DNA from: Eggerthellaceae bacterium
GTDB taxonomy: Bacteria; Actinomycetota; Coriobacteriia; Coriobacteriales; Eggerthellaceae
Length of the DNA stretch: 64,000 bases
Reading direction: 5' to 3'
NCBI GenBank assembly: GCA_009782605.1
Contig: WRIR01000008.1
Location: forward strand, 21,934-85,933
Shown here: positions 10,598 to 38,178 of the stretch, piece after piece
How positions within the stretch are numbered: the stretch's first letter is position 1
How the letters are laid out: every line of letters starts with the position of its first letter
Position numbers and translations under genes: made by a program
Notes under the pieces: generated by a model
What the model saw: the letters and a program-made list of their open reading frames with translations, nothing else
The model's database searches: none
Told to the model about the DNA's origin: nothing

Positions 10598-13500
10598 CTA
10601 CGACGGTGCGCTTCCGAGGGCAGTGGTGGGGTCCCTCTTCAGCATGGCGGCTATCAGGGGAACGACAAGCTGCGCCAACACCAGAAGCGACAGGGGGATT
10701 GAATAGTTGTCCGTCGCCGCCATAGGCCCGGCGAAGTCTTGCGTGGTGAGCAGGATGACCAGGCCCTCGACGAAGGCGACTGCCGATATCAGCAACACGG
10801 GCGTGTTCGCGGAGAGGCCTATTCCCCCGCCGGCGCCCCTCGTCCCTGCCTTGCCGGGCCTGCTGCCGGCCTTGCCTGCCCTGCCCTGCTCCCAGGCATT
10901 GCGGCTTTTCTCGCGCTTCACCATGAGGGCAACGCGCTGTTCCGGGGTCATCTCTGCCCAGGCGTCCTTGTCGATGGGCTCCTCGTGGTACTCGGAGGCC
11001 CGGCTGCGGCGGCCGCGCAGGAACCCGGCAAGCGTGAGCAGGAGCAGCGCGCCGGAAAGGACAGCCGCCACGAGGTTGAAAAGCGACCAGGTGCTTTGCG
11101 GGGAGTCTCCTGACGGAGTGCTCCCGCCAGCCGCCTTGGCCGTCGGCCCGTAGGCGACGGGATCGGGGCCGGAGTCGGGCGCAGAGTCGCGGTCGGGGTC
11201 GCGCCCATCCGCCTCCCCTTCCCTGTCGTCGGCATCATCCGCGCTCCCCGCCGCAGCCGCAGGGGCTTCCGATGCGGGGGCGGCGGGCACGGTGACGTAG
11301 ACCGGTATGGTGGTCGGCGGGGTGCTGTTCGAGCCGCCCGAGGGCGGGATGTTCACCGTCGGCGGGTTGACGACGACCGATGGCGGGTTGACGATGACCG
11401 TCGGCGGCTGCTGGGGCTCGGGCGCCGGCGGGTCGGCGTTCTTCTCCCACTGGGCGTAGACGGCCATGTCGGAAACGACCGGCGTGGAGGCCAGGAACTG
11501 CAGGCCGCCGCCGGGAGCGGCCGCCCAGTGCGTGAAGGTGTAGCCGGAACGTATCGGCGAGCTCGGAAGGTAGCTCAGGGTCGCCGCGGGCTCCTGCACA
11601 TAGATGGTGGCCGGACCGGTAAGGTAGCCTCCGTTGGCGTCGAAGGTCACCGCACAGCGCTTGAGCGGCGCGGTCACAGTTGCGGTGATCGAGGCCTTCA
11701 AGGTGGGGTCGGCGGCCACCGCTATCTGCGGGCGGTACTGGCCGGCGACGTTGGTGTAGCCGTTGGAGCTGACCGCGACCGTGGCGGGCGTCCCGTCATA
11801 GCTGGCGGCCTGAGCGCCGGACTTCGCCGCGATCTGCCCGGACTTGTCGGCCAGGTCGACCTCGGCGTAATCGATCGTGAAATCGCGCGCGGCAAGGACG
11901 TAGTCCTTCCCGTAGAAGAAGGAGCCGTCGTCGATGATGACCGCGCGGGCCGCGGAGGTCGTCGCCGGGGTGCCGTCGGGGTTGGTGATGAAGGGGTCGG
12001 CAACCGTGTAGACGACCTGATAGACGCCGGCCTTCGAAGAGTCGATCAGCGGCATCGCGCCGGTGCCGGAAGCACCCGTGATGACCACGTCCTTCAACCC
12101 GAGCTCGGGGCTCTCGGCGTCGACGACACCGACCCCCCGGAGCAGCTGGTCGCGCGTCAGGGTGACCGGCGTGGAGGTTGCGGCCAAAACAAGCGGGCCG
12201 TCGAGGGTGATGACCGGCATCGTGCCCCGGTCGACGGTGAAGCTCACCGTCACGGACACGCCGCCCACCCCCTGTGGGACGAAGGTGACGTCGTATGCGC
12301 CCATCGCCTGCCTGATTCCGTTGAAGGAGACGTCCACGCCATGGTCTGACAGGGAGCCCGCAGGCGTGACCTTGAAGCCGCGGGCCGCGGCCAAGGTGGC
12401 CAGGGTGGCCTTGGCGACCATGTCGTCCCTGTTCGCCAGGCTGCCGGCCTGCGCCCAGGTGAGCGGCACGTGGTTGGCGGCCACGATGTAGCGGTTGGTA
12501 TCGGCGGGGTCGGCGGTATTGGCGTCATGGACCGTGCCGTCCTCGTCGGGCGTGTTGGATATCGCCTTCCGGTCGAGGACCTGAGCCCGGATGTCCTTCG
12601 TCGGGAGGGGCGTGGACGCAGCTTCCTGCATCCCGCCCGGCACTCCGATAACGACAGGCCCGTAGGACCCCTCCTGGGGCCCGAGCCCTGCCCGGTCCTT
12701 GACGCTGGGGGCGACGTGCTCGATGCCGGTGACCATGCCCTGCGCATCGCGCACGAGGCGGACGGCATCGGCCTTGCCAAGCCCCAGTATGAGGCTGTCA
12801 AGCGGCGAGGCGGCCCTGACTTCGTCGGCAGTCGTGACGAAACTCCAGGCCTTCACGGCCCAGTCGCCAGAGAAGGCCCAGTCGCCCACGAGCACGTAGC
12901 CGACGGCGCTCGTCGAGTTGCCCTCTGTGTCGGTGACGGTATAGCCCAGCTTGTAGACACCCTCTGTCGAGGTGTCGACCGCGCCGGTGCGGGACAGGGC
13001 GAGCGGCGGCGCGGCATTGCCGTCCTCGGCATCCCCGTAGGCGACGCCGCCCCAGTAGTCGGCCTCGGTGAAGCTGCTGTTCAGGCCTGCCTGCCTCAGT
13101 TCGGGGACCGTGATCCAGGGATGATGCCCGTTGGAAACCGTGACGTTGACCTGGACGGATGCCGTGTGGTCCTCGTTGACCCAGAAGGTGGCCGGGATAA
13201 CGGTCGGGTAGCCCGCGGCACCCTCGGCAAGGAAGCTCGCCGTCTTGAAGCCGCCGTCGTCGGCGAGCGCCGGCGTGCCGCCCAAGGAGAGGCCCTGGTC
13301 GGCTCGCAGGTAGCTCTGAGCGTTCGCGCGGGAGACGAAGGCGCTGCCATAGGCCGTGCCGCTCTGCGCCTGCAGCACGCGGGCATCGGCCAGGTTGATG
13401 CGGAAGTGGCGTGCGGATATCGCGTAGGTGGCCCCGTTGCCCACCTCGGTCCCTTCGGGCAGCACCTTGGCGGTGACGGTACGCGTGAGGTTGGGCGAGG

Positions 13501-16500
13501 CGACGATCCCGATGATGGGGGCGTAGTCTGCGGCCACATCCTTGTAGCCCGCCACGTCAGCGACACGCATCGCCGTTGGCGTGCCGTCCGACCTCCAGGC
13601 CAAGGCACCTGAAAGCGCAAGTATCTGGCTTTCGTAGGGCTGGGCCACGTCGGATGCCTTGATGGCGAAGGAGCTCGCCTTCAGGATGAACTCGGGGGTG
13701 TAGTCGATCGAGCCGTCGTTGACGACGACCGCGCGGTCGACGCTGACCCTGTTGCCATCGGAGTCGGTCACCGCATAGGTGACCCGCGTGACAGAGGCGG
13801 CGTTCAGCGGGATCGCAGGCAGCACCTCGGCACCACTCGCATCCGGGTTGATGACGACCCAGCCGGTGATGTTGCCGTCGTCCTCGTCATGGGCTGTGAC
13901 GCCGGCCATCAGCTGTGCACGGGAAAGGCTTCCGGCGGCCGTCGGGCTCCAGGCGACCTCAAGGGGCGTGGGCACCGCGGCGATGGTGGGCATGCTGCCT
14001 TCGCCCACCTGGACGCGCAGGACGATACTCGCCTGGTTGGCGGGCTCGGCGACGGTCACCGAATAGGTGCCGGTCGCCGCGGTGAAACCCCCGCGGCTGA
14101 GCACGGTCGGGTCGAAGGGCTCGACTGCGCCTTCCGGCGTGGTTTTCAGGCCCCCCGCGCCGAGCGCCGCCAAAAGGGCCTTGTCGACGTCCGGGGCGTC
14201 CAGGATGGCCTGGGCCTCGGAATAGCGCAGCATGATGTGGTCGCCGTACACGTAGTAGTTGTCGCGGTCCGGGTCGTCCGGGCCGCTCCCCAAGACGCCG
14301 GCGTCAAGCACGGTGCCCGTGACGTCCTTGGTGATGAAGCCCGCAGGAGCGTCTTGGCCGCGCACGGTGATGCGGTAGGTACCCGCAGCCGGACCGTAGC
14401 CGCCCGCGCTCTGCACTGAGAGCTCGGTGGAGGACATCGGGAAGCCCGTCTCGCCGTTGTAGAGGGCGGCACCCGACTTGCCCAGTATCTCGCTGTTGAG
14501 GTTTGCGGGGTTCGTGGTGACATCGACAAGCCTGGTCACAAAGGAGCTCGCCCGCAAAACCCGCCCGTTGCCGGGCACGTAGCGCCCGTCGTTGACGATC
14601 ACGACACGGGTCGGCAGCACCCGCGGGTGGTTGAAGTCGGTGTCGATGACATCGTAGGTGAGGCGGTACATGCCGACCTTGGCCACATCGACGTCGCCCG
14701 TCGCGGGGTCGGCCTCGTAGGTGACCCAGCCGGTGATGACGCCGTCCTCGTCGTCAACGGCGCTCACGCCGTGCATGGCATGGTACTCGCCCGCAAGGAG
14801 GCTCCCCACCGGCCGGCTCGCCGCGTCGCCGACCCAGACCTCAAGGGGGGTGGGCACGGTGATCGTCGGCATACCCCCCTGGGAGACGGTGCCGGTGACG
14901 GCTACGCCCTGCTCGGCGAGGTCAATGCCATCGATGCGGAAGGTGATGGGCGTGTAGCTGCCGAGCGCCGCCCGGAAGTTCGCCGTGTTGACCAGGAGCG
15001 GCGTGCGCTCCGGCATGTCCGCGACCAGCCCTATGACGCGCACCTTGGCGGCGTCGATGAAACCTTGCGGGGCGCCTTCGAGGATCGCCTGGGCGTCCAC
15101 GAGGTTCACCGTGAAGCTGCTCGCGGCGATGGCGTAGTTGGCATCCTTGCCGCCCGGGTCGACGATGTCGGCATCGGTGACGTGCGCGGTAACGGTCGTG
15201 GCTGCGGGGCGCCCGGACACCCTCCAGGTTATCGGGTAGTCGCCGGCCGCAGCCGCGGCCGTATAGCCCGCCGGTGCCCCCGCCCAGTTCACGGTCAGGC
15301 GCTCGCCGGCGAAGGTGAAGGCCTCGGCATAGGACAGGCTGCGCGCCTGGCCCTCGCTGCCCTCGATGTCGGCGCTGCGGGCAACGAAGTCGCGTGCGCC
15401 GATGATGATGTCGTTCTCTTTGTCTATGAGGTAGCGCCCGTCGGTGACGACGACGGCACGCGACTTGGCGGCGGTGTTGCCGTCGGAGTCGGTGACGCTG
15501 TAGGCGACCCGCCACACGCCGACGTTGTGCCGGTCGAGCGCGACGTTGCCGGCAACCGCGACCGCGGTCCCGTCCAGGAGGGGGCCGTCCTCGGCGTCCA
15601 CGACGCTCATGGCACGTTTGAGGTCGGCGTCGGTGAGCGGCACGGGCGCGGCCGTCTGCTCGAAGACGAGCGGGTCTTCCGTGAACTCGATGACGGGGGC
15701 CAGGCCTTGGTCTATCTGGAAGGTGACGTGCGCCTGTACCTGGGGCTGGCCCTGGGGCGTGAAGACCACCTCGTAGGCGCCGCCGGCCTTGACCGGGTGG
15801 GCGGCGTCGCCTACCTCGTTGCTCAAGACGTCGACGCCCCAGTCCTCCATCGTCGCGGCAACCGCCCAGGACGCGGCGCGGGCGCGGTCGATGAGCAGGG
15901 CCTTGGCGCTGTTGCCCAGGCCGGCGAAGCCCGAAGCCTCGGCAAGGGCGAGGGTGGCGTTCGAGGCGGCCACGACGTAGCGCGCGGTGCCGTCCGTGCC
16001 CTCGCCGATGTCGTCGCCGTCGACGACCAGGCCGGTGACGCTGCGGGCGGGCGACCCGCCGTACAGGGGCTCGGCGGAGGCCAGGCCGACCACGATGGGC
16101 GCATAGGCGCCCGGCGCCTTCGAGTAGCCGGCCTTGTCGGCGACGGCGAGCAGGTAGTCGACCGGGATGGGGAGCAGGGCCTCCTCGGCATGGCTGCCGG
16201 TCGCGATGCGCCACGCGTGCGCCCGGGACGCCGCCAGCACCTCGGCGTCGGTGCCCGCCACGTCCTTGGCCAGCACGACGAAGTCGAGCGCCTCGACGGC
16301 ATAGTCGCCGTCGACGGCGTAGCGCCCGTCGTTGACCAGCACCTTGGTGGCCCGCACGACGGTGTTGTGGTCGGAGTCGGTGACGCTGTAGGCGACCTCC
16401 TGGAAGCCGGCCCTCGTGAAGTCGAGGGGGCTGGCCGCCTCGACGAAGCCGCCGGACCCGTCGAGGCTGCCCCAGGCAAGCAGGTGGGTGACGTCGCCGT

Positions 16501-19500
16501 CCTCGGAGTCGGTGGCCGAGACGCTGTCTGCGGCCGTGCGCTCCGGCCCCCAGACGTAGTCCCATGCGCTTGCCAGGACGGTGCCTGCCGGCTGGGCGGC
16601 CGCGTCCCCGGTCCAGACGGTGCGGATGGGCGGCAGGTGTATCGCGGGATGGTTGCCGTTCGAGACGGCGACCCCTATCCAGGCGAAGGCGTCCCGGTCC
16701 TCGTCGACCCAGAACTTGACGGGGACGACGGTCGGGTAGCCCGGGGCGCCTTCCGCCAGGAAGGCAGCCGCCGCGAAGCCGCCGTCGTCGGCCAGGGCCG
16801 GGGTGCCGCCGGGCGCGAGGCCGGCGTCGGCGCGCTGGTAGCTCGTCGCCTCGGCCCGCACCAGGAAGCTGCGGGCATAGTCCGCGGTGCCCGCAGCCCC
16901 CTGCAGGGCAAGCGCGTCGGTGATGTTGATGCGGAAGTCCTTGGCAGTGATGGCGTAGAGGTCGCCGTTGCCCCCGCTCGCGCCCTCGGCCAGCACCTTG
17001 GCGGTAATCGTCTTGGTCAGGGCGGCGTTTTCCTTGATGGCTATCGTGAGATGGTAGTCGCGTGCCGCCGCAGACATCGACACCGAGTCGGCGACGACGG
17101 CCGTTGCCGGCTCGCCCTGGGATGTCCAGGCCCGGGCCGCCGACCTGTCTAAGATCAGCTCGTCGATGTCCCGGGCTGCGGCGACGTCCCTCGACGGAAT
17201 GACGAAGGAGCTCGCCTGCAGGATGTAGTCGGGGGTATAGACCGCCGAGCCGTCGTTGACGATGACCGCGCGGGTGTCGAAGGACGTGTTGTTGTCGGAG
17301 TCGGTGACGCTGTAGGTGACCTGCGTCACCGAGAAGGCCTTGAGCGGTATGACGGGCATCTGCTCGGCGCCGTCGGCATCCGGGTTGATGCGGACCTCGC
17401 CGGTCAGCGGGCCGTCTTCCGTATCCCCCGCCGTCACGCCGCTCATCAGCTGCTCGCGGGTGACCGTGCCTGCTGTATGCGGGTCGAAGGGGATGTTGAG
17501 CGGCTTGGGCTCGGCCCTGACCCAGGGCGGCGCACCCTCGCTCACCTGGATGGTCAGGGCGATGGACACCGTGCCTTCGGAATCGGCCACAACAGCCGAA
17601 TAGGTGCCCCGCGCGGCCATGAAGCCACCGTCGCTGGCAAGGGTCGCGGGAAGGGTGGAAAGCGAGCCTGTGGGCGTGGCCTTGCGCACTCCGGCGCCCA
17701 GCGCCTCCAGCAGGGCTGCGGCCGGGTCGCCTGCAGCCAGGATGTCCTCGGCCTCGCCTATGCGCAGCGTGATGTCGTTGCCGAAGACGTAGAAGCTGTC
17801 CTTGTCCGGGTCGTTAGGGCCCGAGGCGATGGTCCCGGCATCGACCACCTCGCCGGTGATGGCGCGGTCGAGGTAGCCGCTGGGGGCATCCTGCCCCCGG
17901 ACGATGATGGGGTAGGAGCCCGCCTCGGCCCGGTAGTTCCCGCTGGCATAGACGGAGATGGCGGTCGAGGATATCCGGCCCCCGCTCTGGCCGTCGTACA
18001 GGGCGGCGGCAGACTTGGAGAGGATGTCCTGGTCGAAGGGCGGCACAACGTCCTTGAGCAGGGTCACGAAGGAGTTCGCGGCAAGGATGCGGCCTCCCAC
18101 CGCATAGCGCCCGTCATTGACGACCACCACGCGGTCGCGGTCGACGGTGTTGTTGTCGCGATCGGTGACCCGGTAGGAGACCATGTAGCGCCCCACCCGG
18201 GCAAGGTCCACCGGCCCGGTCGACGCGTCGGGGGAGGCCACGACCGCAGATATCAGGTCGCCGTCCTCGTCGTCGGCCGCCGCGACGCCGTAGAGGTCGC
18301 CCGCGACTGCGGCGTACTCGGCCGCCGTGATGGCAGCGGCAGGCTTGAGGCCCGGCTCGCCTATCCACACCTCGACCGGGGTCATGACGTCGAGCAGGGG
18401 CACGGAGCCCTGGGAGACCGTGCCCTCGACCGTCACGCTCTGGGTGGTCGCCGGGATGGTGTCGATGCGGAAGGTGACCGCATAGACCCCCAGCTCGTCG
18501 GTGAAGCCCCCCGAGGTCACCAGGAGCGCGTCGAGTGCGGCGGCATCCGGCACAAGCGGGATGACCCGGGCGGAGGCGGCGTCGACATAGCTCGCCGGGC
18601 TGCCCATGAGTATCTGGTACGCCTCTGCGAGGTTTGCCCGGAAATGGGAGGCCGCGATGGCATAGCTGGAGTCCTTGGTGCCCATGTCCACCACGTCGGC
18701 GTCGACCACCCGCGCGGTGACGTCCTTGGTGGTGGTGCGTCCCTCGGCCTTCCACGAGACCGGGTAGGAGCCTGCCGGGGCGTTTGCCGCATAGCCCGCT
18801 GGCGTGCCTGTCCAGGACACGGAAAGCGGCGCACCGGAGAGGTCGAAGGCCTCAGCGTACGAGAGGCTTTTCGCCTGGCCCTCGCTGCCGTCCACGCAAC
18901 CGACGCCGAAGCGCTTGACGACGAAGTCGCGTGCGCCGATGATGATGTCGTTCTCTTTGTCTATGAGGTAGCGCCCGTCGGTGACGACGACGGCACGCGA
19001 CTTGGCGGCGGTGTTGCCGTCGGAGTCGGTGACGCTGTAGGCGACCCGCCACACGCCGACGTTGTGCCGGTCGAGCGCGACGTTGCCGGCAACCGCGACC
19101 GCGGTCCCGTCCAGGAGGGGGCCGTCCTCGGCGTCCACGACGCTCATGGCACGTTTGAGGTCGGCGTCGGTGAGCGGCACGGGCGCGGCCGTCTGCTCGA
19201 AGACGAGCGGGTCTTCCGTGAACTCGATGACGGGGGCCAGGCCTTGGTCTATCTGGAAGGTGACGTGCGCCTGTACCTGGGGCTGGCCCTGGGGCGTGAA
19301 GACCACCTCGTAGGCGCCGCCGGCCTTGACCGGGTGGGCGGCGTCGCCTACCTCGTTGCTCAAGACGTCGACGCCCCAGTCCTCCATCGTCGCGGCAACC
19401 GCCCAGGACGCGGCGCGGGCGCGGTCGATGAGCAGGGCCTTGGCGCTGTTGCCCAGGCCGGCGAAGCCCGAAGCCTCGGCAAGGGCGAGGGTGGCGTTCG

Positions 19501-22500
19501 AGGCGGCCACGACGTAGCGCGCGGTGCCGTCCGTGCCCTCGCCGATGTCGTCGCCGTCGACGACCAGGCCGGTGACGCTGCGGGCGGGCGACCCGCCGTA
19601 CAGGGGCTCGGCGGAGGCCAGGCCGACCACGATGGGCGCATAGGCGCCCGGCGCCTTCGAGTAGCCGGCCTTGTCGGCGACGGCGAGCAGGTAGTCGACC
19701 GGGATGGGGAGCAGGGCCTCCTCGGCATGGCTGCCGGTCGCGATGCGCCACGCGTGCGCCCGGGACGCCGCCAGCACCTCGGCGTCGGTGCCCGCCACGT
19801 CCTTGGCCAGCACGACGAAGTCGAGCGCCTCGACGGCATAGTCGCCGTCGACGGCGTAGCGCCCGTCGTTGACCAGCACCTTGGTGGCCCGCACGACGGT
19901 GTTGTGGTCGGAGTCGGTGACGCTGTAGGCGACCTCCTGGAAGCCGGCCCTCGTGAAGTCGAGGGGGCTGGCCGCCTCGACGAAGCCGCCGGACCCGTCG
20001 AGGCTGCCCCAGGCAAGCAGGTGGGTGACGTCGCCGTCCTCGGAGTCGGTGGCCGAGACGCTGTCTGCGGCCGTGCGCTCCGGCCCCCAGACGTAGTCCC
20101 ATGCGCTTGCCAGGACGGTGCCTGCCGGCTGGGCGGCCGCGTCCCCGGTCCAGACGGTGCGGATGGGCGGCAGGTGTATCGCGGGATGGTTGCCGTTCGA
20201 GACGGCGACCCCTATCCAGGCGAAGGCGTCCCGGTCCTCGTCGACCCAGAACTTGACGGGGACGACGGTCGGGTAGCCCGGGGCGCCTTCCGCCAGGAAG
20301 GCAGCCGCCGCGAAGCCGCCGTCGTCGGCCAGGGCCGGGGTGCCGCCGGGCGCGAGGCCGGCGTCGGCGCGCTGGTAGCTCGTCGCCTCGGCCCGCACCA
20401 GGAAGCTGCGGGCATAGTCCGCGGTGCCCGCAGCCCCCTGCAGGGCAAGCGCGTCGGTGATGTTGATGCGGAAGTCCTTGGCAGTGATGGCGTAGAGGTC
20501 GCCGTTGCCCCCGCTCGCGCCCTCGGGCAGCACCCTGCCGACGATGGGCTTCGCCGAGTCGAAGCCCGCGACCGCGATGTCGAAGCGGTAGTCGCCCGGC
20601 AGGGCATCGCGCCCATAGCCGGATGCCGCGAAGCCCGCGACCTGGAGCATTCCCGCAGGCACGGGGGTGCCGGCCGCATGGTTCGCATCGCCGAGGTAGT
20701 AGGCGCTTGCCTGGGAGAGCTCCAGCACCTCGGCCTCGCTGCCCCTCACGTCGCCGTATGCGACGAGGAAGCCCTTGGCGCCGAGGATGATTCCTGCGGC
20801 AGTATCGACCATGAAGCTGCCGTCGTCGATGACGAGGGCGCGGGTGGCGTTCTCGGCCGCCATGCCGTCGGAGTCGGTGACGCTGTAGGTGACCGAGTAC
20901 ACGCCGGGGGTGGCGGTATGGAGGCTCGTCACGGCACCGCCGTTGACGGTATAGGTGGCCTGCGCGGTGATGTCGCCGTCCTGGTCGTCCCAGGCCAGCA
21001 TCTGGCCGCGCACCTCGTCGGCAGTGAGCTCATGGGCGGTTTCGCCCCGGTCGAAGGGGATGATGAGCGGGTCTTGCTGGAAGGTGATCACCGGAGGCGT
21101 GCCGTAGAGCGTGTAGGCAACGGCGACCGTGATGTCCTCGAAGCCCTTGATGGCGAACACGACCTCGTAGTCCCTTCCCGATATGCCGCCGGCAGCCGGG
21201 ATGTCGTTCTTGACGACCACGGCCCCGGCATCTCCCAGGGAGGCGAGGGCGCCGCCGGGGAGGCCCAGGGCGGTGGCGGTGTCCATGAGCTGCCAGGCCT
21301 GGGCCTGGGACCTGTTGACGAGCTTGAGCTGGGCCGCGTTGCCCATGCCTGCGTAGTCGGCGGCGTCGGCGACCGAGATGGTCGCGTTGTCGGCGGCAAT
21401 GCTGTAGCGGACGGCGCTGCCCGCGTCGTCCTTGTCGGCGAGCTCGTGGCACCCGGTCACGACCGCGTCTACGGTCGACTCAAGCGTAGTGGCCGGACCG
21501 CCCGCAGGGGCTGCAACGCCCAGGGTCACCGGGTAGGCGCCTTCCGCGCAACCGGGCCGGTAGCTGCCGGCGCTCTTGAGGGCGACGCCCACCGCGACCA
21601 TGCCGCCGGGCTCGGCGGCATCGACCAGCCACGCCCGGGCACGGGAGTCGCCCACAACGGCGGTAGCACCGGCATCGACGTCGGCAGCCTTCTTCACGAA
21701 GCTCGTGGCGTCAAGCAGGTAGTTACCGTCGCTCACGAAGGTGCCGACCGCCACCACGCCCGTCGCGGTGGTGGCATTGCCGTCGGCGTTGGCAACCGAA
21801 TACACAACCGGGTACACCCCGACCTTTGCCAGGTCGACCGCACTGGCGTCGATGGCGACCAGCCCGGTGATGTCAAGGCCGTTCTCGGCCGAGAGCGCGG
21901 TGACGTAGTCGGCCGGGTTGTAGGCGCCCGGCAGAATGGCGCTCGCCGGCTTGCGGGCTGCGTCCCCCAGCCAGACGAGGACCGGGGAGCCCACCATGAG
22001 CACGGGCAGCTCGCCCTCGACGACGATGGCCTGGACGGTCACCCAGCGGCCCTCGTCCGGGCTGGCGCCCGAGCCCAGCACCTTGAAGGTCACCGGGTAG
22101 CTCTGCCCGGCAACCGGGTCGGCCGGTATCCCCACGACGTGGACCTCGACCATGTCGGGGCTGAATGCGTCGCCCAAATCGGCACGCGCCTTGGCGCCCG
22201 CCATCATGATGAGCGTGTCGTTGCACTCGCCGCTCGGCCCTGCCATCAGGCTGGCAGCGTTCTTGGCCGTGATAGAGAAGTCGTTCGCGCCGATATAGGG
22301 CCGCGCCTCCATGAAGGGGAGCACGGTTATATGGCCGGTGCTGTAGATGCCCGGGTCGGCGGTTGCGGCATACCGGACGCGGTAGTCCTCGCCCTGGGGG
22401 TGCGCCATGCTGAAGGCCGCCCTGTCCAGATAGTAGCCCGGCTCCCCCCAGGGCGGGACGGCCTCCACCACGGACAGGCCGGTGCTTCCCGGCCAGGCGG

Positions 22501-25500
22501 CACCGGGGCGTACCGAGGCGCTTGCCTTGATCTCGCCGAGGAGCTCGTTTCCTTGTTCGGTGCTGCCGGTGCTGTATGCGGCGATCTCTGCCGCCCGGGC
22601 AAGGCCGATGTAGGCGTTCTCGTGGGTCAAGACTAAATCGGGGAGCTTGACTTCGAGATAGGGGGCAGGCTGCTTGTAGGTGTCGTGAATGGCAACAAGC
22701 TGCTGGCTGGCAACGACCGGGTTAGCGTTGCCGTTCTCGTCCTCAAGGACGAGATAGACCCTGCTGCTCTCAGAAAGCGTAGAGGTGGCACTTTCCGGCA
22801 ATACAAGGTCCCAGGTGCCGTCATCGTTGAGCGTGCCGAGTATCGGCTGCCCGTCCTTGCCGAGTATCGCATTGTCATCGGTGTCGACCACCGCATACAG
22901 CCTTATTGCAGGTTCCGGGTTGTGGGGCTCCGCGGCAGCCTGGGCGCCCTGGGCAAGCCAGGTTCCCGAGAGCTCGGCCTCAAGCCCTACCCAGAGCTTC
23001 CCGCTCGTCGGATAGCCTATCTTGGCCGGGGCCGGCGGCAGGACGTCCTCGACCGTGATGGGGGCCGGCATGTCCTCGGGCCGCGCCAGGTGTACCTTGG
23101 CCGGGTCGGGGTTGCCGGGGTATTCGACCCCGCGCCACAGCGAGTCCATGCGGAAGGTGTCCCCCGAGCGCAGGAAGCCGCCGTCGGAGTAGCGGACCAC
23201 GCCCTCAAGCATCCTGCCGGTCTTCTCCATCTCATAGACGTCGTTCTCCATCAGGATGGAGGAAACCTGCCCCGCCGTGGACATCTCTATGTCGCCCGTA
23301 GCGGCGCGGGTGATTGCATAGCGGCCGAAGACCTCGTCGGTCCAGATGGGGCGCCCGAGACTGTCAAGGCCCTCGGCCACCGAGCCGATGACGCGCAGGT
23401 ACTTGTCAGCGTTGGTGACCGGCTCGAACACCCGGTCGATCCTCGGGGCGGCGTTGTTGCCTTGGATGCGGCGGTAGGGCAGCATCCCCTGCGAGCCGAA
23501 GTTGTCCACCGCGGTCGTGAGTATCAGGCTGTTGTTGTTGTCGAAGGTGCCGTCGCCGCCAAAGCTCACGCTCCCGGCTATGGTCAGGCGCTGCATGGGC
23601 CACGACAGGTAGGGGTCCCCCCACGATGCCGAGCTCCCCCAGACGGGCGGGGGCGGGACAAGGCCGGCGCTCGTGCCGGTGCCGGTGCCCTGGGGGTTTA
23701 TCGACGAGTTGGAGGCGTTCGCCGTCCCGCCGACGCGGCTGGTGCCGTTGCCCCAGACCGCGATGTCAGAGTCGATGGAGTTGAAGCTCACCCCCGTTGC
23801 CGTGGTGGTGCGGAACACCCGTGCGGGGAGGGCCGTGGTGCCCGCCCCGAAGTTCGCGAAGTCGTAGTAGAGCGGGTTGGTGAAGGTGAACTCGAAGCCC
23901 TGCGTGCCGTGGACGATGGCGCCCCGGTCCACGCTGCCGTGCATGATGGCGACCGCCCCCGGCCCGATGTTCACCGTCCCGTTGTCGTTGCTGATGGTGG
24001 TCGCGGCATTGGTGCTCGTCCCCGATATGCAGGCGCCCCGCTGGGAGTAGAGCTCGATGGACGAGCCATAGTCGTGCACGTCGAAGCTCCAGTTCGGGCC
24101 CATGAAGTTGATGGCAGGGCTCTTGATGGTGGTCTCGAAGTCCTTGTTCCCCGCCCCGCCGTTGTTGCCCTCGTTGACGACCTTGAGGATGCCGCCGCTC
24201 TCGATGAAGAACTTGTTGTCCCGGCCGCAGAAGGAGATGCCTGCGGCTGTGGCGTTGTAGTTGGTGTTCGACAGCTTCCTGACCACCTCGACCTCGGCGT
24301 TCCGGGAGACGCGCATCTCGCAGTTCATGGGCTCGTTGAGGCCCAGGCCGACCGTTGCGTAGGTGCCTATCCCCGCATGTATCCAGAGCGCACCGTGCAT
24401 GAGGCTTTCCCTGTTCAAGAGCATGTTCTGCGACTCGCAGTAGAGCTTGGAGCCTGTGCCGCTCACATGGAAGTAGGCATCGCCCGGCTTGAGGCCGCGG
24501 ATGCCCTGGATGAGCGCGGTCCCGCCCTGCCCGGACGAGGTCTGCGTGTTGTAGGCGCTCAGCTTGGCGCCGTTGCTCACGGTCGTGCCGCCGTGGCCGC
24601 CGCAGGTCGAGATGGTGCCGGACTCGTCGGCCCAGCCCCAGATGTTGCTGTAGGCCGTGACCTCGGTGCCTTCGCCGTCGACCAGCATCCAGGCGCCCGT
24701 GGCCTGCTTCTGGGCGTATTCCGGGCTTGTCTTCGAGTTGGTGTTCAGGGATGTCGAGCCCTGGTAGTGGACCCGGTCCCAGGACGTCCCGATCGCGACG
24801 GCGGCGCAGTAGTAGTCAAGGCGGTAGTTCTGGAGGTATGCCTTGGTGCCGTTTATGAAGCTTATCTCGTTGTCCCCCGTGAGCGTGGACGCGACGAGGA
24901 CGCCCGTGGGGGCGCTGGTGCGGATGTCCATGTCGGCATTGTCGTAGACCTGGTGCTGGGCATAGACCATCGGCCCGTGGTTGCCGCTTGCCGCGTTGGG
25001 GGCCGGCATGTTGTTCGTGTTGTTGAGCTGCCCGTACCACACTATCTTGCCGGTGCCGCGCACCGTGCCGTTGAGGTTGTGCACGAGGCTTCCCCGCTGC
25101 GGGCCGTCGCCTTCCACGTCCTCAAGGTTGACGGTCCACCTGTCGGTGATGGTGGAGGGGAGGGGCACCCCGGGGGAAGAGTAGCCCCAGGTCGCGAAGC
25201 CCGTGGCGTTCGTGCCAGCGGAAGTGGTGCGGCTCCCCACGGCAACGAGGACGTTTTGCTGGGCGCTCCGGGCGGTCGTGCGCATTATCTTGATGTCCTT
25301 CAAGGTGAAGCTCAAATCGGGGCCGGGGGTCATCGTCAGGACCAGCGTGATGTTCTCGTTCTGGGAGCCGACGTGCAGCGTGTGCCCGTTGCCGTCGAGG
25401 ACGAGGTCGCGGGCGAGCACGGAGGGCTGCGTGTTGTTCGTGCCCCGGATGACGTTCGACGAGAGGCGGATGTAGCTCACGTTCGGGTCGTCCCAGGCGA

Positions 25501-25894
25501 TGCAGAAGTCGGCCCAGGTGTCGACCTCGACGCCGCCCGGGATGTCGCCTATGCCCGTTATGGTCAGCGGCATGACGGGGATGCCTTCGGCAGAGTGCGG
25601 GGCGGGGGCCTGTCCGGGGGCCGGCGGCCCGCCCGGGCCTTCCTGGACAGGGCCTTCCTGGGCGGTGGCGCCTTGCGGGTAGTTGAAGTCGTGCCAAGAG
25701 TCGAGCCCTGAGTCATGCCAGGAAGGGTTATCGTATTCCACCAGGCCGTTGCCGGGGGCGGCCACCTCTTCCGCAAGCGATGTCGTCGGGGGAGCCATCA
25801 TGACGGCTAGGTTGACCGCAAGGAGGGCAGCCAGGGCCTTCCTGGGTGCCTGCATTATCCCCTTGTTTCGCCTGCTGCTTTTCTCTGTGCTCAT
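10598..25894 (-). CDS. giant (5098 aa) secreted, membrane-anchored surface protein: signal peptide, beta-helix-like N-terminal region, about 12 Ig-like repeats, InlB-type repeat, C-terminal TM segments
   Basis: Single uninterrupted ORF; N-terminal signal-like MQAPRKALAALLAVNLAVMMAPPTTSLAEE; repeated ..EDGD..YSVTDSDGNT...VVNDGRY.. units; CAVTFDANGGYLTG...YTFTHWAAAPGGG...YAQWEK; C-terminal hydrophobic helices. Confidence 0.9.
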   Translation of the reverse strand: MSTEKSSRRNKGIMQAPRKALAALLAVNLAVMMAPPTTSLAEEVAAPGNGLVEYDNPSWHDSGLDSWHDFNYPQGATAQEGPVQEGPGGPPAPGQAPAPHSAEGIPVMPLTITGIGDIPGGVEVDTWADFCIAWDDPNVSYIRLSSNVIRGTNNTQPSVLARDLVLDGNGHTLHVGSQNENITLVLTMTPGPDLSFTLKDIKIMRTTARSAQQNVLVAVGSRTTSAGTNATGFATWGYSSPGVPLPSTITDRWTVNLEDVEGDGPQRGSLVHNLNGTVRGTGKIVWYGQLNNTNNMPAPNAASGNHGPMVYAQHQVYDNADMDIRTSAPTGVLVASTLTGDNEISFINGTKAYLQNYRLDYYCAAVAIGTSWDRVHYQGSTSLNTNSKTSPEYAQKQATGAWMLVDGEGTEVTAYSNIWGWADESGTISTCGGHGGTTVSNGAKLSAYNTQTSSGQGGTALIQGIRGLKPGDAYFHVSGTGSKLYCESQNMLLNRESLMHGALWIHAGIGTYATVGLGLNEPMNCEMRVSRNAEVEVVRKLSNTNYNATAAGISFCGRDNKFFIESGGILKVVNEGNNGGAGNKDFETTIKSPAINFMGPNWSFDVHDYGSSIELYSQRGACISGTSTNAATTISNDNGTVNIGPGAVAIMHGSVDRGAIVHGTQGFEFTFTNPLYYDFANFGAGTTALPARVFRTTTATGVSFNSIDSDIAVWGNGTSRVGGTANASNSSINPQGTGTGTSAGLVPPPPVWGSSASWGDPYLSWPMQRLTIAGSVSFGGDGTFDNNNSLILTTAVDNFGSQGMLPYRRIQGNNAAPRIDRVFEPVTNADKYLRVIGSVAEGLDSLGRPIWTDEVFGRYAITRAATGDIEMSTAGQVSSILMENDVYEMEKTGRMLEGVVRYSDGGFLRSGDTFRMDSLWRGVEYPGNPDPAKVHLARPEDMPAPITVEDVLPPAPAKIGYPTSGKLWVGLEAELSGTWLAQGAQAAAEPHNPEPAIRLYAVVDTDDNAILGKDGQPILGTLNDDGTWDLVLPESATSTLSESSRVYLVLEDENGNANPVVASQQLVAIHDTYKQPAPYLEVKLPDLVLTHENAYIGLARAAEIAAYSTGSTEQGNELLGEIKASASVRPGAAWPGSTGLSVVEAVPPWGEPGYYLDRAAFSMAHPQGEDYRVRYAATADPGIYSTGHITVLPFMEARPYIGANDFSITAKNAASLMAGPSGECNDTLIMMAGAKARADLGDAFSPDMVEVHVVGIPADPVAGQSYPVTFKVLGSGASPDEGRWVTVQAIVVEGELPVLMVGSPVLVWLGDAARKPASAILPGAYNPADYVTALSAENGLDITGLVAIDASAVDLAKVGVYPVVYSVANADGNATTATGVVAVGTFVSDGNYLLDATSFVKKAADVDAGATAVVGDSRARAWLVDAAEPGGMVAVGVALKSAGSYRPGCAEGAYPVTLGVAAPAGGPATTLESTVDAVVTGCHELADKDDAGSAVRYSIAADNATISVADAADYAGMGNAAQLKLVNRSQAQAWQLMDTATALGLPGGALASLGDAGAVVVKNDIPAAGGISGRDYEVVFAIKGFEDITVAVAYTLYGTPPVITFQQDPLIIPFDRGETAHELTADEVRGQMLAWDDQDGDITAQATYTVNGGAVTSLHTATPGVYSVTYSVTDSDGMAAENATRALVIDDGSFMVDTAAGIILGAKGFLVAYGDVRGSEAEVLELSQASAYYLGDANHAAGTPVPAGMLQVAGFAASGYGRDALPGDYRFDIAVAGFDSAKPIVGRVLPEGASGGNGDLYAITAKDFRINITDALALQGAAGTADYARSFLVRAEATSYQRADAGLAPGGTPALADDGGFAAAAFLAEGAPGYPTVVPVKFWVDEDRDAFAWIGVAVSNGNHPAIHLPPIRTVWTGDAAAQPAGTVLASAWDYVWGPERTAADSVSATDSEDGDVTHLLAWGSLDGSGGFVEAASPLDFTRAGFQEVAYSVTDSDHNTVVRATKVLVNDGRYAVDGDYAVEALDFVVLAKDVAGTDAEVLAASRAHAWRIATGSHAEEALLPIPVDYLLAVADKAGYSKAPGAYAPIVVGLASAEPLYGGSPARSVTGLVVDGDDIGEGTDGTARYVVAASNATLALAEASGFAGLGNSAKALLIDRARAASWAVAATMEDWGVDVLSNEVGDAAHPVKAGGAYEVVFTPQGQPQVQAHVTFQIDQGLAPVIEFTEDPLVFEQTAAPVPLTDADLKRAMSVVDAEDGPLLDGTAVAVAGNVALDRHNVGVWRVAYSVTDSDGNTAAKSRAVVVTDGRYLIDKENDIIIGARDFVVKRFGVGCVDGSEGQAKSLSYAEAFDLSGAPLSVSWTGTPAGYAANAPAGSYPVSWKAEGRTTTKDVTARVVDADVVDMGTKDSSYAIAASHFRANLAEAYQILMGSPASYVDAASARVIPLVPDAAALDALLVTSGGFTDELGVYAVTFRIDTIPATTQSVTVEGTVSQGSVPLLDVMTPVEVWIGEPGLKPAAAITAAEYAAVAGDLYGVAAADDEDGDLISAVVASPDASTGPVDLARVGRYMVSYRVTDRDNNTVDRDRVVVVNDGRYAVGGRILAANSFVTLLKDVVPPFDQDILSKSAAALYDGQSGGRISSTAISVYASGNYRAEAGSYPIIVRGQDAPSGYLDRAITGEVVDAGTIASGPNDPDKDSFYVFGNDITLRIGEAEDILAAGDPAAALLEALGAGVRKATPTGSLSTLPATLASDGGFMAARGTYSAVVADSEGTVSIALTIQVSEGAPPWVRAEPKPLNIPFDPHTAGTVTREQLMSGVTAGDTEDGPLTGEVRINPDADGAEQMPVIPLKAFSVTQVTYSVTDSDNNTSFDTRAVIVNDGSAVYTPDYILQASSFVIPSRDVAAARDIDELILDRSAARAWTSQGEPATAVVADSVSMSAAARDYHLTIAIKENAALTKTITAKVLAEGASGGNGDLYAITAKDFRINITDALALQGAAGTADYARSFLVRAEATSYQRADAGLAPGGTPALADDGGFAAAAFLAEGAPGYPTVVPVKFWVDEDRDAFAWIGVAVSNGNHPAIHLPPIRTVWTGDAAAQPAGTVLASAWDYVWGPERTAADSVSATDSEDGDVTHLLAWGSLDGSGGFVEAASPLDFTRAGFQEVAYSVTDSDHNTVVRATKVLVNDGRYAVDGDYAVEALDFVVLAKDVAGTDAEVLAASRAHAWRIATGSHAEEALLPIPVDYLLAVADKAGYSKAPGAYAPIVVGLASAEPLYGGSPARSVTGLVVDGDDIGEGTDGTARYVVAASNATLALAEASGFAGLGNSAKALLIDRARAASWAVAATMEDWGVDVLSNEVGDAAHPVKAGGAYEVVFTPQGQPQVQAHVTFQIDQGLAPVIEFTEDPLVFEQTAAPVPLTDADLKRAMSVVDAEDGPLLDGTAVAVAGNVALDRHNVGVWRVAYSVTDSDGNTAAKSRAVVVTDGRYLIDKENDIIIGARDFVARSADIEGSEGQARSLSYAEAFTFAGERLTVNWAGAPAGYTAAAAAGDYPITWRVSGRPAATTVTAHVTDADIVDPGGKDANYAIAASSFTVNLVDAQAILEGAPQGFIDAAKVRVIGLVADMPERTPLLVNTANFRAALGSYTPITFRIDGIDLAEQGVAVTGTVSQGGMPTITVPTPLEVWVGDAASRPVGSLLAGEYHAMHGVSAVDDEDGVITGWVTYEADPATGDVDVAKVGMYRLTYDVIDTDFNHPRVLPTRVVIVNDGRYVPGNGRVLRASSFVTRLVDVTTNPANLNSEILGKSGAALYNGETGFPMSSTELSVQSAGGYGPAAGTYRITVRGQDAPAGFITKDVTGTVLDAGVLGSGPDDPDRDNYYVYGDHIMLRYSEAQAILDAPDVDKALLAALGAGGLKTTPEGAVEPFDPTVLSRGGFTAATGTYSVTVAEPANQASIVLRVQVGEGSMPTIAAVPTPLEVAWSPTAAGSLSRAQLMAGVTAHDEDDGNITGWVVINPDASGAEVLPAIPLNAASVTRVTYAVTDSDGNRVSVDRAVVVNDGSIDYTPEFILKASSFAIKASDVAQPYESQILALSGALAWRSDGTPTAMRVADVAGYKDVAADYAPIIGIVASPNLTRTVTAKVLPEGTEVGNGATYAISARHFRINLADARVLQAQSGTAYGSAFVSRANAQSYLRADQGLSLGGTPALADDGGFKTASFLAEGAAGYPTVIPATFWVNEDHTASVQVNVTVSNGHHPWITVPELRQAGLNSSFTEADYWGGVAYGDAEDGNAAPPLALSRTGAVDTSTEGVYKLGYTVTDTEGNSTSAVGYVLVGDWAFSGDWAVKAWSFVTTADEVRAASPLDSLILGLGKADAVRLVRDAQGMVTGIEHVAPSVKDRAGLGPQEGSYGPVVIGVPGGMQEAASTPLPTKDIRAQVLDRKAISNTPDEDGTVHDANTADPADTNRYIVAANHVPLTWAQAGSLANRDDMVAKATLATLAAARGFKVTPAGSLSDHGVDVSFNGIRQAMGAYDVTFVPQGVGGVSVTVSFTVDRGTMPVITLDGPLVLAATSTPVTLTRDQLLRGVGVVDAESPELGLKDVVITGASGTGAMPLIDSSKAGVYQVVYTVADPFITNPDGTPATTSAARAVIIDDGSFFYGKDYVLAARDFTIDYAEVDLADKSGQIAAKSGAQAASYDGTPATVAVSSNGYTNVAGQYRPQIAVAADPTLKASITATVTAPLKRCAVTFDANGGYLTGPATIYVQEPAATLSYLPSSPIRSGYTFTHWAAAPGGGLQFLASTPVVSDMAVYAQWEKNADPPAPEPQQPPTVIVNPPSVVVNPPTVNIPPSGGSNSTPPTTIPVYVTVPAAPASEAPAAAAGSADDADDREGEADGRDPDRDSAPDSGPDPVAYGPTAKAAGGSTPSGDSPQSTWSLFNLVAAVLSGALLLLTLAGFLRGRRSRASEYHEEPIDKDAWAEMTPEQRVALMVKREKSRNAWEQGRAGKAGSRPGKAGTRGAGGGIGLSANTPVLLISAVAFVEGLVILLTTQDFAGPMAATDNYSIPLSLLVLAQLVVPLIAAMLKRDPTTALGSAPS
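15384..16989 (-). repeat. internal duplication copy B within the giant gene
   Basis: Appears identical over about 1606 bp to 18921-20526 (offset 3537 bp); supported by identical translations of overlapping ORFs in several frames and both strands. Confidence 0.92.
18921..20526 (-). repeat. internal duplication copy A within the giant gene
   Basis: Same as copy B; boundaries ACGAAGTCGCGTGCG... to ...CGCCCTCGG. Confidence 0.92.
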
Positions 25895-33299: not shown

Positions 33300-34013
33300 T
33301 TAAAGCCCCAGGGCCTTTTTGAGGGCGGCGACACGGCGGCGGGACACCGGGATCTTCTCGTCGGAGCCGTTCAGGACCAGCAGCAGGGTGCCTCCCGAGA
33401 CCGGCTCGATCTCTTCGACGAGCGAGAGGTTCACCAGATAACCCCGGTGCACCCGGAAGAAGCCGTGCCCGTCGAGGCGCTTCTCCAGCTGCGCCAGGCT
33501 GACCGTTGAAAAGTAGCGGTCGGAGTCGGTCTGCAGGTAAGCATAGTCGTCGCGTGCCATGACGAAGCGTATCTTGTCGATGCCGATAAGTATCTTCTTC
33601 CCGCCCTTTTCCACCGGGATGCGCTCGGCCCGCTGCGCCTTCGCATGGAGCGACACGTGCTCGCGCACCCGTGTGATGGCCTGCGCCAGGCGGTCGGTCT
33701 CGACGGGTTTCACCAGATAGTCGACGGCACTCACCTTGAAGGCGTCGAGAGCGAACTCGCTGTAGGCCGTCACGAACACGACTGCAGGGGGGTACTTCAG
33801 GCGTTGAAGCGCGTCGGCGAGCTGGAGGCCGGTCGCCTCAGGCATGGAGATGTCGAGGAAGACCACGTCGCAAGGATGCTCCTTGAGCCTTTCGATGGCG
33901 TCCCTGACACTTGCCGCCTCCGCAACGATCTCGGTCTGAGCCAGCTCGTCAAGCAGGTACTTCAGTTCCGAGCGCGCAGGGGTCTCGTCATCAACGATGA
34001 TTGTCTTCAGCAT
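33300..34013 (-). CDS. LytTR-family response regulator
   Basis: MLKTIIVDDETPARSELKYLLDE...DVVFLDISMPEATGLQLAD...VFVTAYSEFALDAF and C-terminal LytTR domain (FFRVHRGYLVNLSLVEEIEP). Confidence 0.93.
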   Translation of the reverse strand: MLKTIIVDDETPARSELKYLLDELAQTEIVAEAASVRDAIERLKEHPCDVVFLDISMPEATGLQLADALQRLKYPPAVVFVTAYSEFALDAFKVSAVDYLVKPVETDRLAQAITRVREHVSLHAKAQRAERIPVEKGGKKILIGIDKIRFVMARDDYAYLQTDSDRYFSTVSLAQLEKRLDGHGFFRVHRGYLVNLSLVEEIEPVSGGTLLLVLNGSDEKIPVSRRRVAALKKALGL

Positions 34014-34295
34014 GGTCGCTTTTCCTCCAGGTCGACGTCTTCGGGGCCGCACAGGCCACCGGTAGGGTTTTCTTGGATGTGCCTTGTCAGGCCCCTCAAT
34101 TATAGGGCAAGATTTCCCTCCGCCCAAAAGATTCGCACAAGCGGCACGAGCCGAACCGCACAAACGACATTTCCGATCAACCGCCAATTCCTTGCATGTG
34201 CCGTCATTGGCCTTTAGTGTCGTAAATACTTCATTCGTAAATTCCACTTTTTGGCAATTTATTCGTACATTCTTCGTATGTTGAATGGGGAAACA

Positions 34296-35012
34296 CTATG
34301 CAAGCGCTTCGGCGACTCTCCCCCTTATCGCCGCCTCGAATTTTAGCCATGTCATATCACTGGCCGGTTCAATCATTTTCATTTTTGCAGGATCAACTAA
34401 AGCATAAAAAACGCGGTCATAGACACGCTCGGTCATTAAGCGCCTACATGACACAATGGAGCGTTCAAGGTATCCCGTTTCTTGATATTCACGATCAACA
34501 GGGAAATGGGGCTGTCTAAACTTTGTTGAAGTATGTATTTTTACATCATCTCTAATTACGAATACGTATCCAAGCCACGGTGTTGAATGATTGTATAGGT
34601 CGTATCGGCAGGCAGTTTGAAAATCAAACCCCGATCCTATCGCCTCTTCCGTACGATTGTTCATGTTGTTGCCATATGAGCTCCAAATGGATTTTAATTC
34701 GATTGCGGCTATTAATTTTTCTTCTCGAACAACTACGATATCCCAAGACTTTTCTGGACGAAAAAAACCTGGTAATTCTACTCCTCTTTTTCCAAAATGG
34801 ATTTCTTCCTTATTTATTCCAGAGTCAATGAATACTTGAGCAATCACATCAGCAAGGGCATCTAGATGTCCTCCACTTGTTACTTGGCTCCTGAATCCTT
34901 GATCCATATTGCCGGCTACTTGTTGACGTTTCGCTGCGTCTTCGCGTGATGACTCAATGCCAACAATTGCGTATTCCACAGCTCGTTTAATATCATTTCC
35001 GTTAAACTGCAA
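34296..35012 (-). CDS. PaeR7I/XhoI-family type II restriction endonuclease
   Basis: WDIVVVREEKLIAAIELKSIWSSYGNNMNNRTEEAIGSGFD; likely TTG start at 35012 preceded by AGGGAGAATAAAA; the ORF-track ATG at 35060 gives a longer N-terminus. Confidence 0.87.
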   Translation of the reverse strand: MQFNGNDIKRAVEYAIVGIESSREDAAKRQQVAGNMDQGFRSQVTSGGHLDALADVIAQVFIDSGINKEEIHFGKRGVELPGFFRPEKSWDIVVVREEKLIAAIELKSIWSSYGNNMNNRTEEAIGSGFDFQTACRYDLYNHSTPWLGYVFVIRDDVKIHTSTKFRQPHFPVDREYQETGYLERSIVSCRRLMTERVYDRVFYALVDPAKMKMIEPASDMTWLKFEAAIRGRVAEALA

Positions 35013-36612
35013 TTTTATTCTCCCTGTATCCAAAGGCAATCGAAGCTGCCTCATTAGCAAGACTATAATCCTTATTAACGAATGCCTTTTTCAAGGCGTC
35101 CGCAATATCATTGGCTATAGTGTCTGGGTCAGGAACCCTGATTTTCCTAAGAAATTGCGCTTGGAATCGAAGCGTACCTCCACGCATTTTGACTCCGTAA
35201 GCATCGATGAATAGCTCGCAATAGAAAGACATCAACAACCCGCCAAGCACCAGTAAATCCCATTTTTCTGAGGTGATATAATACAAATTTCCGTGAGGAT
35301 AGTGCTTATCGTCATAATAAGGTTCGAGTCTATAGTGCATATCCTGAATTAAGAGTTTCGGTGTATTTTCGAGTCCGGGACGATAGTTGTCAATGGTTCT
35401 AAACCATGTTCCGGAATTCTTTTTTGCAATATGCCTTTTACCAAGGACAGTGCGATTGTTAGAAAAAAAATCGCATAGTTTTTTGGTATTGGACAAATCC
35501 GAGAGTGAGCCATCTTTGTTCCAAGGACTAACAAGCCACAATGGGTCTGTGTAAACGCTCTCAGTACTTAACTGCCGGGATGTAATCATAGGAATCAAAT
35601 GTTCTGGCTCAACAAGGTCTTTTACCCTAGTAAGAAAGATGCTATCGTTGCCCGTTGCCATTCCAATTCCGACACGTGTTCCTGTTTCTAGGCTTTCGAG
35701 CATTGGAAAATGCTCTTCAAGATCGCATAATAGGGCTTGTTTTTCAGGCAAAAGAAGAGGCCAAGACCCATCTGTAAGTTTCTTTGCTTGGATTTCTCCT
35801 ATACGGCAATTTTGAACACCTTGAAAAACTTTTCGCTCGAAAGCATCGGCCAATTTAACTGCTTCTTTTTCATCAAAATATGAAGTGGCTTCAACATAGA
35901 TGACGTTACCTTGTGTTGCTTTGGATATGGTTGAAATGGCAGGGTAGGCAGAAACATTACTTTCAAAGGCATTAACATCATGCATTGAAATAATTGACTC
36001 AACTGCATAATTTTCAATAATATACTTGCGAAGCTTTTTGCCATATGAATTATGCATCCATCTATCAGCGCAAATAAAGGAAAGTTTGCCGGAAGAATTC
36101 AGCATGGATAAACCTTTTTCATAAAATCCGATGAATAGATCGCTGCCAGGAGTCATTGTCTGACAGTTCATCAGGTATTTTTGCTTCTTTTCTTCATCAA
36201 TGTCGTTCGATCGAAGATATGGTGGATTGCCAACGAGAAAATCTGCGCTGGTAAATTGCGGCATTATTAAAAAATCATCCTGGATAACCCAGCTTTCAAT
36301 CAATTTATTTGAAAGCTGGGAATCGATATTTTCAGAAGTAAGTAAGGCGCTTAGAGATCTCTTTGTGGTGGTTATTGAAGAGGGACAAACGTCGATGGCT
36401 TTTATTGATCCGTGCAAATCATCGAAATTATGACCAAATAGTCTGCATGACTCTATCAGTCGTTTTGCCATCTGTACCACAAAAACGCCAGTTCCGCAGG
36501 AGGGCTCTACTGCAACCCTTCTCGATAAATCGATACGAGAGTCATAACCGCACAAATCGAGCATCAGATTGACGATCCATTCTTTTGTATAAACAACTCC
36601 GTTTTTCTTCAT
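35002..36612 (-). CDS. N6-adenine DNA methyltransferase, cognate of the PaeR7I/XhoI-type endonuclease
   Basis: VAVEPSCGTGVFVVQMAKRL (SAM motif), ADFLVGNPPYLRSND (NPPY motif IV); ATG at 36612 has RBS AGGAAAG. Confidence 0.9.
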   Translation of the reverse strand: MKKNGVVYTKEWIVNLMLDLCGYDSRIDLSRRVAVEPSCGTGVFVVQMAKRLIESCRLFGHNFDDLHGSIKAIDVCPSSITTTKRSLSALLTSENIDSQLSNKLIESWVIQDDFLIMPQFTSADFLVGNPPYLRSNDIDEEKKQKYLMNCQTMTPGSDLFIGFYEKGLSMLNSSGKLSFICADRWMHNSYGKKLRKYIIENYAVESIISMHDVNAFESNVSAYPAISTISKATQGNVIYVEATSYFDEKEAVKLADAFERKVFQGVQNCRIGEIQAKKLTDGSWPLLLPEKQALLCDLEEHFPMLESLETGTRVGIGMATGNDSIFLTRVKDLVEPEHLIPMITSRQLSTESVYTDPLWLVSPWNKDGSLSDLSNTKKLCDFFSNNRTVLGKRHIAKKNSGTWFRTIDNYRPGLENTPKLLIQDMHYRLEPYYDDKHYPHGNLYYITSEKWDLLVLGGLLMSFYCELFIDAYGVKMRGGTLRFQAQFLRKIRVPDPDTIANDIADALKKAFVNKDYSLANEAASIAFGYRENKIAV

Positions 36613-36642
36613 TCGCTTCTTTCCTATATCTTCAAAGACCAC

Positions 36643-38165: not shown

Positions 38166-38178
38166 TCTCACACGCCTT

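Follow-up and report, generated by a model that had tools for sequence, protein, structure and literature searches.

A giant predicted surface protein gene in the MAG of an uncultured Eggerthellaceae gut bacterium contains two copies of a 1,606-bp block that are identical base for base in the assembly, at an offset of 3,537 bp, inside an array of otherwise diverged repeat units. The gene lies in a window of 64,000 nucleotides, the whole stretch of DNA analysed here. The best explanation of the block, and in our judgement a probable one, is ectopic recombination within the gene, in which copy B was written over copy A with the presumed loss of about two units. Blocks and fused units of a similar kind recur in related giant genes; the closest relatives come from termites.

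The window belongs to contig C8 of a MAG of 1.95 Mb (30 contigs, 83% complete), ∼3.6% of which is occupied by its five giant genes. The gene is encoded on the minus strand, and its 5,098-aa product starts, by inspection, with a signal-peptide-like stretch (Table 1). In the Pfam scan Bact_surface_Ig-like domains (PF16403) are spread along the repeat array, with scores of 87.7 and 88.7 bits in the two halves of the protein, above the gathering cut-off of 27 bits. After the Flg_new domain come proline-rich segments and hydrophobic ones, and the match to the FILTED C-terminal domain (NF052597) at the C-terminus stays under the curated cut-off. Given these domains and the comparison with Giant and Periscope proteins (PMC12863079, PMC8201768), the protein is likely to be a long cell-surface stalk bearing an adhesive domain. 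Genes sharing the array differ in their tails: paralogues C4 (L019), C10 (L021) and C11 (L023) have a PKTGD sortase-type tail, whereas the window gene (10598-10800) and the genes of G074, G107, G052 and G102 have a multi-helix FILTED-like anchor at the C-terminal end. Judging from the sequences, these tails would reflect swapping of C-terminal anchors inside one family. Elsewhere in the window, at 34296-36642, a low-GC island (∼43% versus 65%) carries genes for a restriction enzyme of the XhoI type and a DNA methylase of the Eco57I/N6 type. A LytTR response regulator is encoded on one side of it (33300-34247) and a histidine kinase on the other (36864-38228); the island is apparently a restriction-modification system inserted into a two-component system.

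Table 1. Features of the giant gene (positions in the window)
Feature	Position	Strand	Description or basis
Giant predicted surface protein gene	10598..25894	-	5098 aa, ATG start
Pectate_lyase_5 (PF20585), adhesive-type beta-helix match near N-terminus, aa 122-205	25280..25531	-	Pfam
U1, type a1	20825..21745	-	unit typing
U2, chimera b1/d2/d2	19868..20824	-	unit typing and sliding comparison
U2pre, N-terminal third of U2, type b (best b1), aa 1691-1789	20527..20824	-	
Identical block, copy A, aa 1790-2325	18921..20526	-	probable recipient
U3, type a2 with a3-like N third; same sequence as U7	18983..19867	-	unit typing
U4, type b2; block stops ∼20 aa inside	18116..18979	-	unit typing
U5, type c2	17255..18115	-	unit typing
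U6, type d2	16331..17254	-	unit typing
Identical block, copy B, aa 2969-3504	15384..16989	-	probable donor; continuous d2 context on N-side
U7, type a2, a3-like N third	15446..16330	-	unit typing
U8, type b2	14591..15442	-	unit typing
U9, type c2	13718..14590	-	unit typing
U10, type d2; start of the supposed third copy	12887..13717	-	unit typing
U11, type a3	11930..12886	-	unit typing
U12, partial final unit, type d3, first domain only	11672..11929	-	unit typing
Flg_new / Listeria-Bacteroides repeat (PF09479), single, near C-terminal end	11450..11650	-	Pfam
Predicted C-terminal hydrophobic anchor, sub-threshold FILTED-domain match (NF052597)	10643..10798	-	30.3 bits, cut-off 40

A profile search with the ∼295-aa unit recovered 11 full units in the window gene, with a partial unit at either end of the array, and as many as 19 full units in other giant genes. 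Neighbouring units are ∼33% identical in aligned amino acids. An AlphaFold2 model of a single unit (mean pLDDT 97.2) can be read as three domains. The last third is an Ig-like domain, matched by PF16403 in 62 of 78 units (E <= 0.01) in the third domain only, and the remainder probably forms two small domains, as read from the secondary-structure string and the ends of partial units. Clear sequence relatives with solved structures were found for the third domain only, and the fold search against the PDB returned generic Ig/cadherin-like matches with low TM-scores.

The units were typed by scoring every third of every unit against three reference genes. They follow a strict a-b-c-d order in three position-specific blocks: a1 b1 c1 d1, a2 b2 c2 d2 and a3 b3 c3 d3-partial. 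This canonical order is exact in paralogues C10 and C11 and in G074 C5, from another family of the order; two middle blocks occur in G107 C11 and C4, and more in G052 C27. The a-b-c-d order thus recurs in giant genes of related bacteria, and a super-repeat of ∼1,170-1,200 aa is the dominant period across most of the family. Complete arrays range from 7 to 19 full units. Counts of 7 (G052 C35), 11 (C10, C11 and G074 C5), 15 (G107 C11) and 19 (G052 C27) all occur, so that lengths frequently differ by entire four-unit blocks. The window gene reads a1, b1/d2, a2, b2, c2, d2, a2, b2, c2, d2, a3, d3. The stretch at about 11850-13450, which the first-pass annotation took for a third, truncated copy of the super-repeat, does start with d2, but continues with a3 instead of a2 and then with d3, and so belongs for the most part to another type of repeat. 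At 11672-12886 the a3 unit runs straight into the partial d3 with b3 and c3 absent, likely a second two-unit contraction in this gene.

The identity of 15384-16989 and 18921-20526, reported from the first inspection of the sequence, is confirmed in the assembly. Copy A begins at the first domain linker within U2 and ends ∼20 residues inside U4; copy B extends from U6 into U8. Both edges are abrupt, identity falling to ∼60-75% inside one 100-bp window. Shuffling the codon columns of the in-register alignment 500 times produced identical runs of at most 42 nt. None of the 340 fourfold-degenerate codons among the 534 complete codons of the block differs, as compared with 98 of 190 fourfold sites (52%) identical in the next in-register units. 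By arithmetic, super-repeat identity averaged over the 1,179-aa period including the block is ∼75%. There is no third near-identical copy in the genome, where the next best matches reach 72-73% of nucleotides over long stretches. We considered and rejected a mobile cassette: the block is in-frame coding sequence, and no long stretch elsewhere in the genome resembles it at more than 73%.

Purifying selection, or a functional RNA or DNA element, could in principle hold the block identical, and the identity itself is the one observation in its favour. The homologous segments in paralogues and relatives vary freely: within this genome at most 72% of nucleotides match across the whole block. Moreover, fourfold sites that are all identical are confined to the two block copies. 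We regard this explanation as extremely improbable. Somewhat more can be said for a simple duplication of one super-repeat in tandem, after which all but the block diverged: G052 C27, C4 and G001 show raised identity over about one super-repeat length, as tandem duplication predicts, and the arrays themselves were probably built through such duplications. Yet the block contains no differences, as against 50-54% amino acid and 52% fourfold identity in the rest of the super-repeat. Block and surroundings therefore differ in age, which excludes a single duplication, and the junction of unlike units at the N-edge also speaks against it. Tandem duplication is thus very unlikely to account for the block.

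The two edges differ in kind. The first-pass annotation described homology at the same spacing on both sides of the block. Downstream this holds: on the C-side both flanks are b2, in register and diverged (U4/U8 50% and U5/U9 54% amino acid identity; ∼65% of nucleotides in the flanks). Upstream it does not, as copy A follows a b-type domain and copy B follows d2, with 32% shared. This is the level of unlike units, and the N-edge is therefore a fusion of unlike units. U2pre is typed as b from ∼100 aa, whose best matches (37-47% identity) are b units in each of the five other genes compared, and the corresponding part of U6 has its best match in d2 units in all five. A sliding comparison places the change of U2 from b1 to d2 character at 20526/20527, the edge of the block. 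Identity far above that of the flanks, abrupt edges and the inclusion of silent sites are marks of gene conversion, and the block shows them, but an in-register flank is present on the C-side only, with b1 facing d2 on the N-side.

Ectopic recombination accommodates these features as follows. About 535 codons of the second middle super-repeat (the U6 body, U7 and the start of U8) would recently have been copied onto the matching part of the first super-repeat. The join would have been made in register on the C-side (b2/b2) and out of register, from b1 to d2 at a domain linker, on the N-side. Relative to the canonical order, the recipient would have lost the b1 body, c1, d1 and a2 and gained the d2 body and a2, at a net cost of about two units. 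By gene conversion, with break repair templated by another copy in the array, a single event would suffice; two successive unequal crossovers between length alleles could yield the same product. The direction from B to A is likely, because copy B sits in its native d2 context and U3 shares 60% with the a unit in second position of paralogue C4, as against 44% with the one in first position. Both the direction and the lost units are read from comparison with paralogues. The earlier proposal of recent recombination in an older diverged array thus stands as the best explanation, with independent examples in the family, except that one edge is an out-of-register fusion.

An assembly effect is the most serious competitor, although we think it unlikely: near-identical copies (e.g. 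95-99%) might have been collapsed, which would overstate the identity, or length alleles of two cells joined chimerically. Many contig ends of the window genome overlap by exactly 123 bp, the signature of a de Bruijn assembly of short reads at k = 123. The same 123-mer never occurs twice in a plain unitig of such a graph, where a 1.6-kb exact repeat is one edge. The repeat is longer than k, so the path A-R-B-R-C must have been worked out by the assembler; the 1,606-bp block and a second one of 1,590 bp described below both exceed k. Sister MAGs were sequenced on Illumina and assembled at JGI (PMC7024585). In the genus mate G002, too, contigs end within giant genes with exact overlaps of 103 or 123 bp. 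On the other hand, graph edges demand identity of at least k at the block ends, so the abrupt edges are backed by the graph. The two-copy path keeps the frame open, and its spacing fits the super-repeat of ∼1,170 aa found in many relatives. The interior of the block is free of overlaps with other contig ends, and imperfect tracts elsewhere (93% in G002, shoulders of 93-97% in G107) are impossible as collapse artefacts. The block is certainly identical in the assembly and likely identical in the cell. Regular spacing, an uninterrupted frame and the imperfect tracts elsewhere all argue for recombination as a real event.

The four G002 ends in giant genes (L025 1-123, 14494-14616; L026, L027 and L028 ends) share their exact 103-123-bp stretches with other giant-gene copies; identical blocks between G002 paralogues probably broke the assembly there. 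Many contig ends of G000, such as the starts of C6, C11, C13, C15 and C28, lead into low-complexity sequence rich in G or C, and a 149-bp inverted repeat links the two ends of contig C22.

Signs of intragenic recombination are not confined to the window gene. In G107 C11 (WRHL01000011.1), from a member of the Coriobacteriia of another genus found in the gut of Neocapritermes taracua, 1,590 bp are identical at an offset of 3,495; identity is 93-97% in the shoulders and drops to ∼70% beyond them. This block has in-register flanks on both sides, as gene conversion predicts, and it spans other units (b2-c2) and is therefore a separate event. The genus mate G002 has, in C6, a 460-bp tract of ∼93% identity with sharp edges over a ∼55% background. 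Excess identical runs reach 89 nt in C4 and 70 nt in G052 C27, against at most 40 nt in shuffles; the same shuffle test detected no excess identity in most in-register copies of other genes (C10, C11 and the G074 genes), and the events are therefore patchy. Fused units occur in G074 C3 and C2 (a/c3), G074 C8 (c2/a3), C4 (a3/b3) and G107 (d2/d1), with the mappable junctions near domain linkers. The relatives recovered in genome searches belong for the most part to MAGs of Coriobacteriia, many of which are of termite-gut origin, and in a few cases to Clostridia-type and Propionibacteriaceae MAGs. The repeat-unit relatives L148, L151, L156, L159, L162 and L163 come from Lachnospiraceae, Clostridiales Family XIII and Propionibacteriaceae MAGs, a distribution that suggests cross-phylum transfer among gut bacteria.

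The first-pass annotation saw in recombination a means of changing the length or the antigenicity of the protein. A change of length is supported by the comparison of paralogues and relatives, with one genome for each species. Antigenic variation finds no support: the nearest relatives are termite-gut bacteria, and insects are without antibody immunity. The host of the window genome is presumably also a termite, by extension from the genus mate (Eggerthellaceae, Nt197P3bin53).

Most known cases of recombination in surface proteins with repeats concern pathogens and short, near-identical repeats. In the window family the same process acts on domain modules that are long and diverged, and the bacteria are insect-associated; here the order rule outlasts recombination and fused units are joined near domain linkers. 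We tentatively raise the possibility that the giant stalk proteins of gut Coriobacteriia (mostly from termite-derived MAGs) form a modular recombination system, with a fixed a-b-c-d order, gains of four units, fusions near linkers, homogenisation of selected stretches and a rapidly changing adhesin set in each cell lineage. The findings also carry a warning: short-read MAGs hide or misstate such blocks, and several giant genes here stop at contig ends. The kind of process is known; the literature searched on giant Ig-like proteins of Coriobacteriia and on FILTED surface proteins yielded nothing relevant, and as far as we searched the family is without a description.

Three known systems invite comparison. 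Hollingshead (1987, cited in PMC9704523) is said to have shown that streptococcal M protein varies in size through recombination between intragenic repeats. There, as here, repeats within one surface-protein gene recombine, but M protein has short near-identical repeats, a pathogenic bearer and experimental proof, whereas our case concerns long diverged modules and is inferred from one genome. Periscope Proteins (SasG, Rib, Sgo_0707, CdrA and CshA) share the architecture predicted for the window protein, with a functional domain at the N-terminus, tandem domains as a stalk and an anchor at the C-terminus, and changes in their repeat number have been ascribed, as a proposal, to intragenic recombination (PMC8201768, PMC9704523). 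Their defining repeat identity is 80%; here units share ∼33% and super-repeats ∼54% outside the block, with an identical patch only, and this low repeat identity rules out membership. Giant1-5 of the honeybee symbiont Apilactobacillus kunkeei are several surface proteins of 3,000-8,000 aa that take up a few per cent of the genome (PMC12863079). They have other repeat folds and a C-terminal DUF5776, which the Pfam scan did not match in the window protein, and they undergo same-locus exchange between strains, with no recent gene conversion between paralogues (PMC12863079). Like the window protein, they combine an insect-associated bacterium, an N-terminal beta-solenoid-type domain, imperfect internal repeats and intragenic recombination (PMC12863079).
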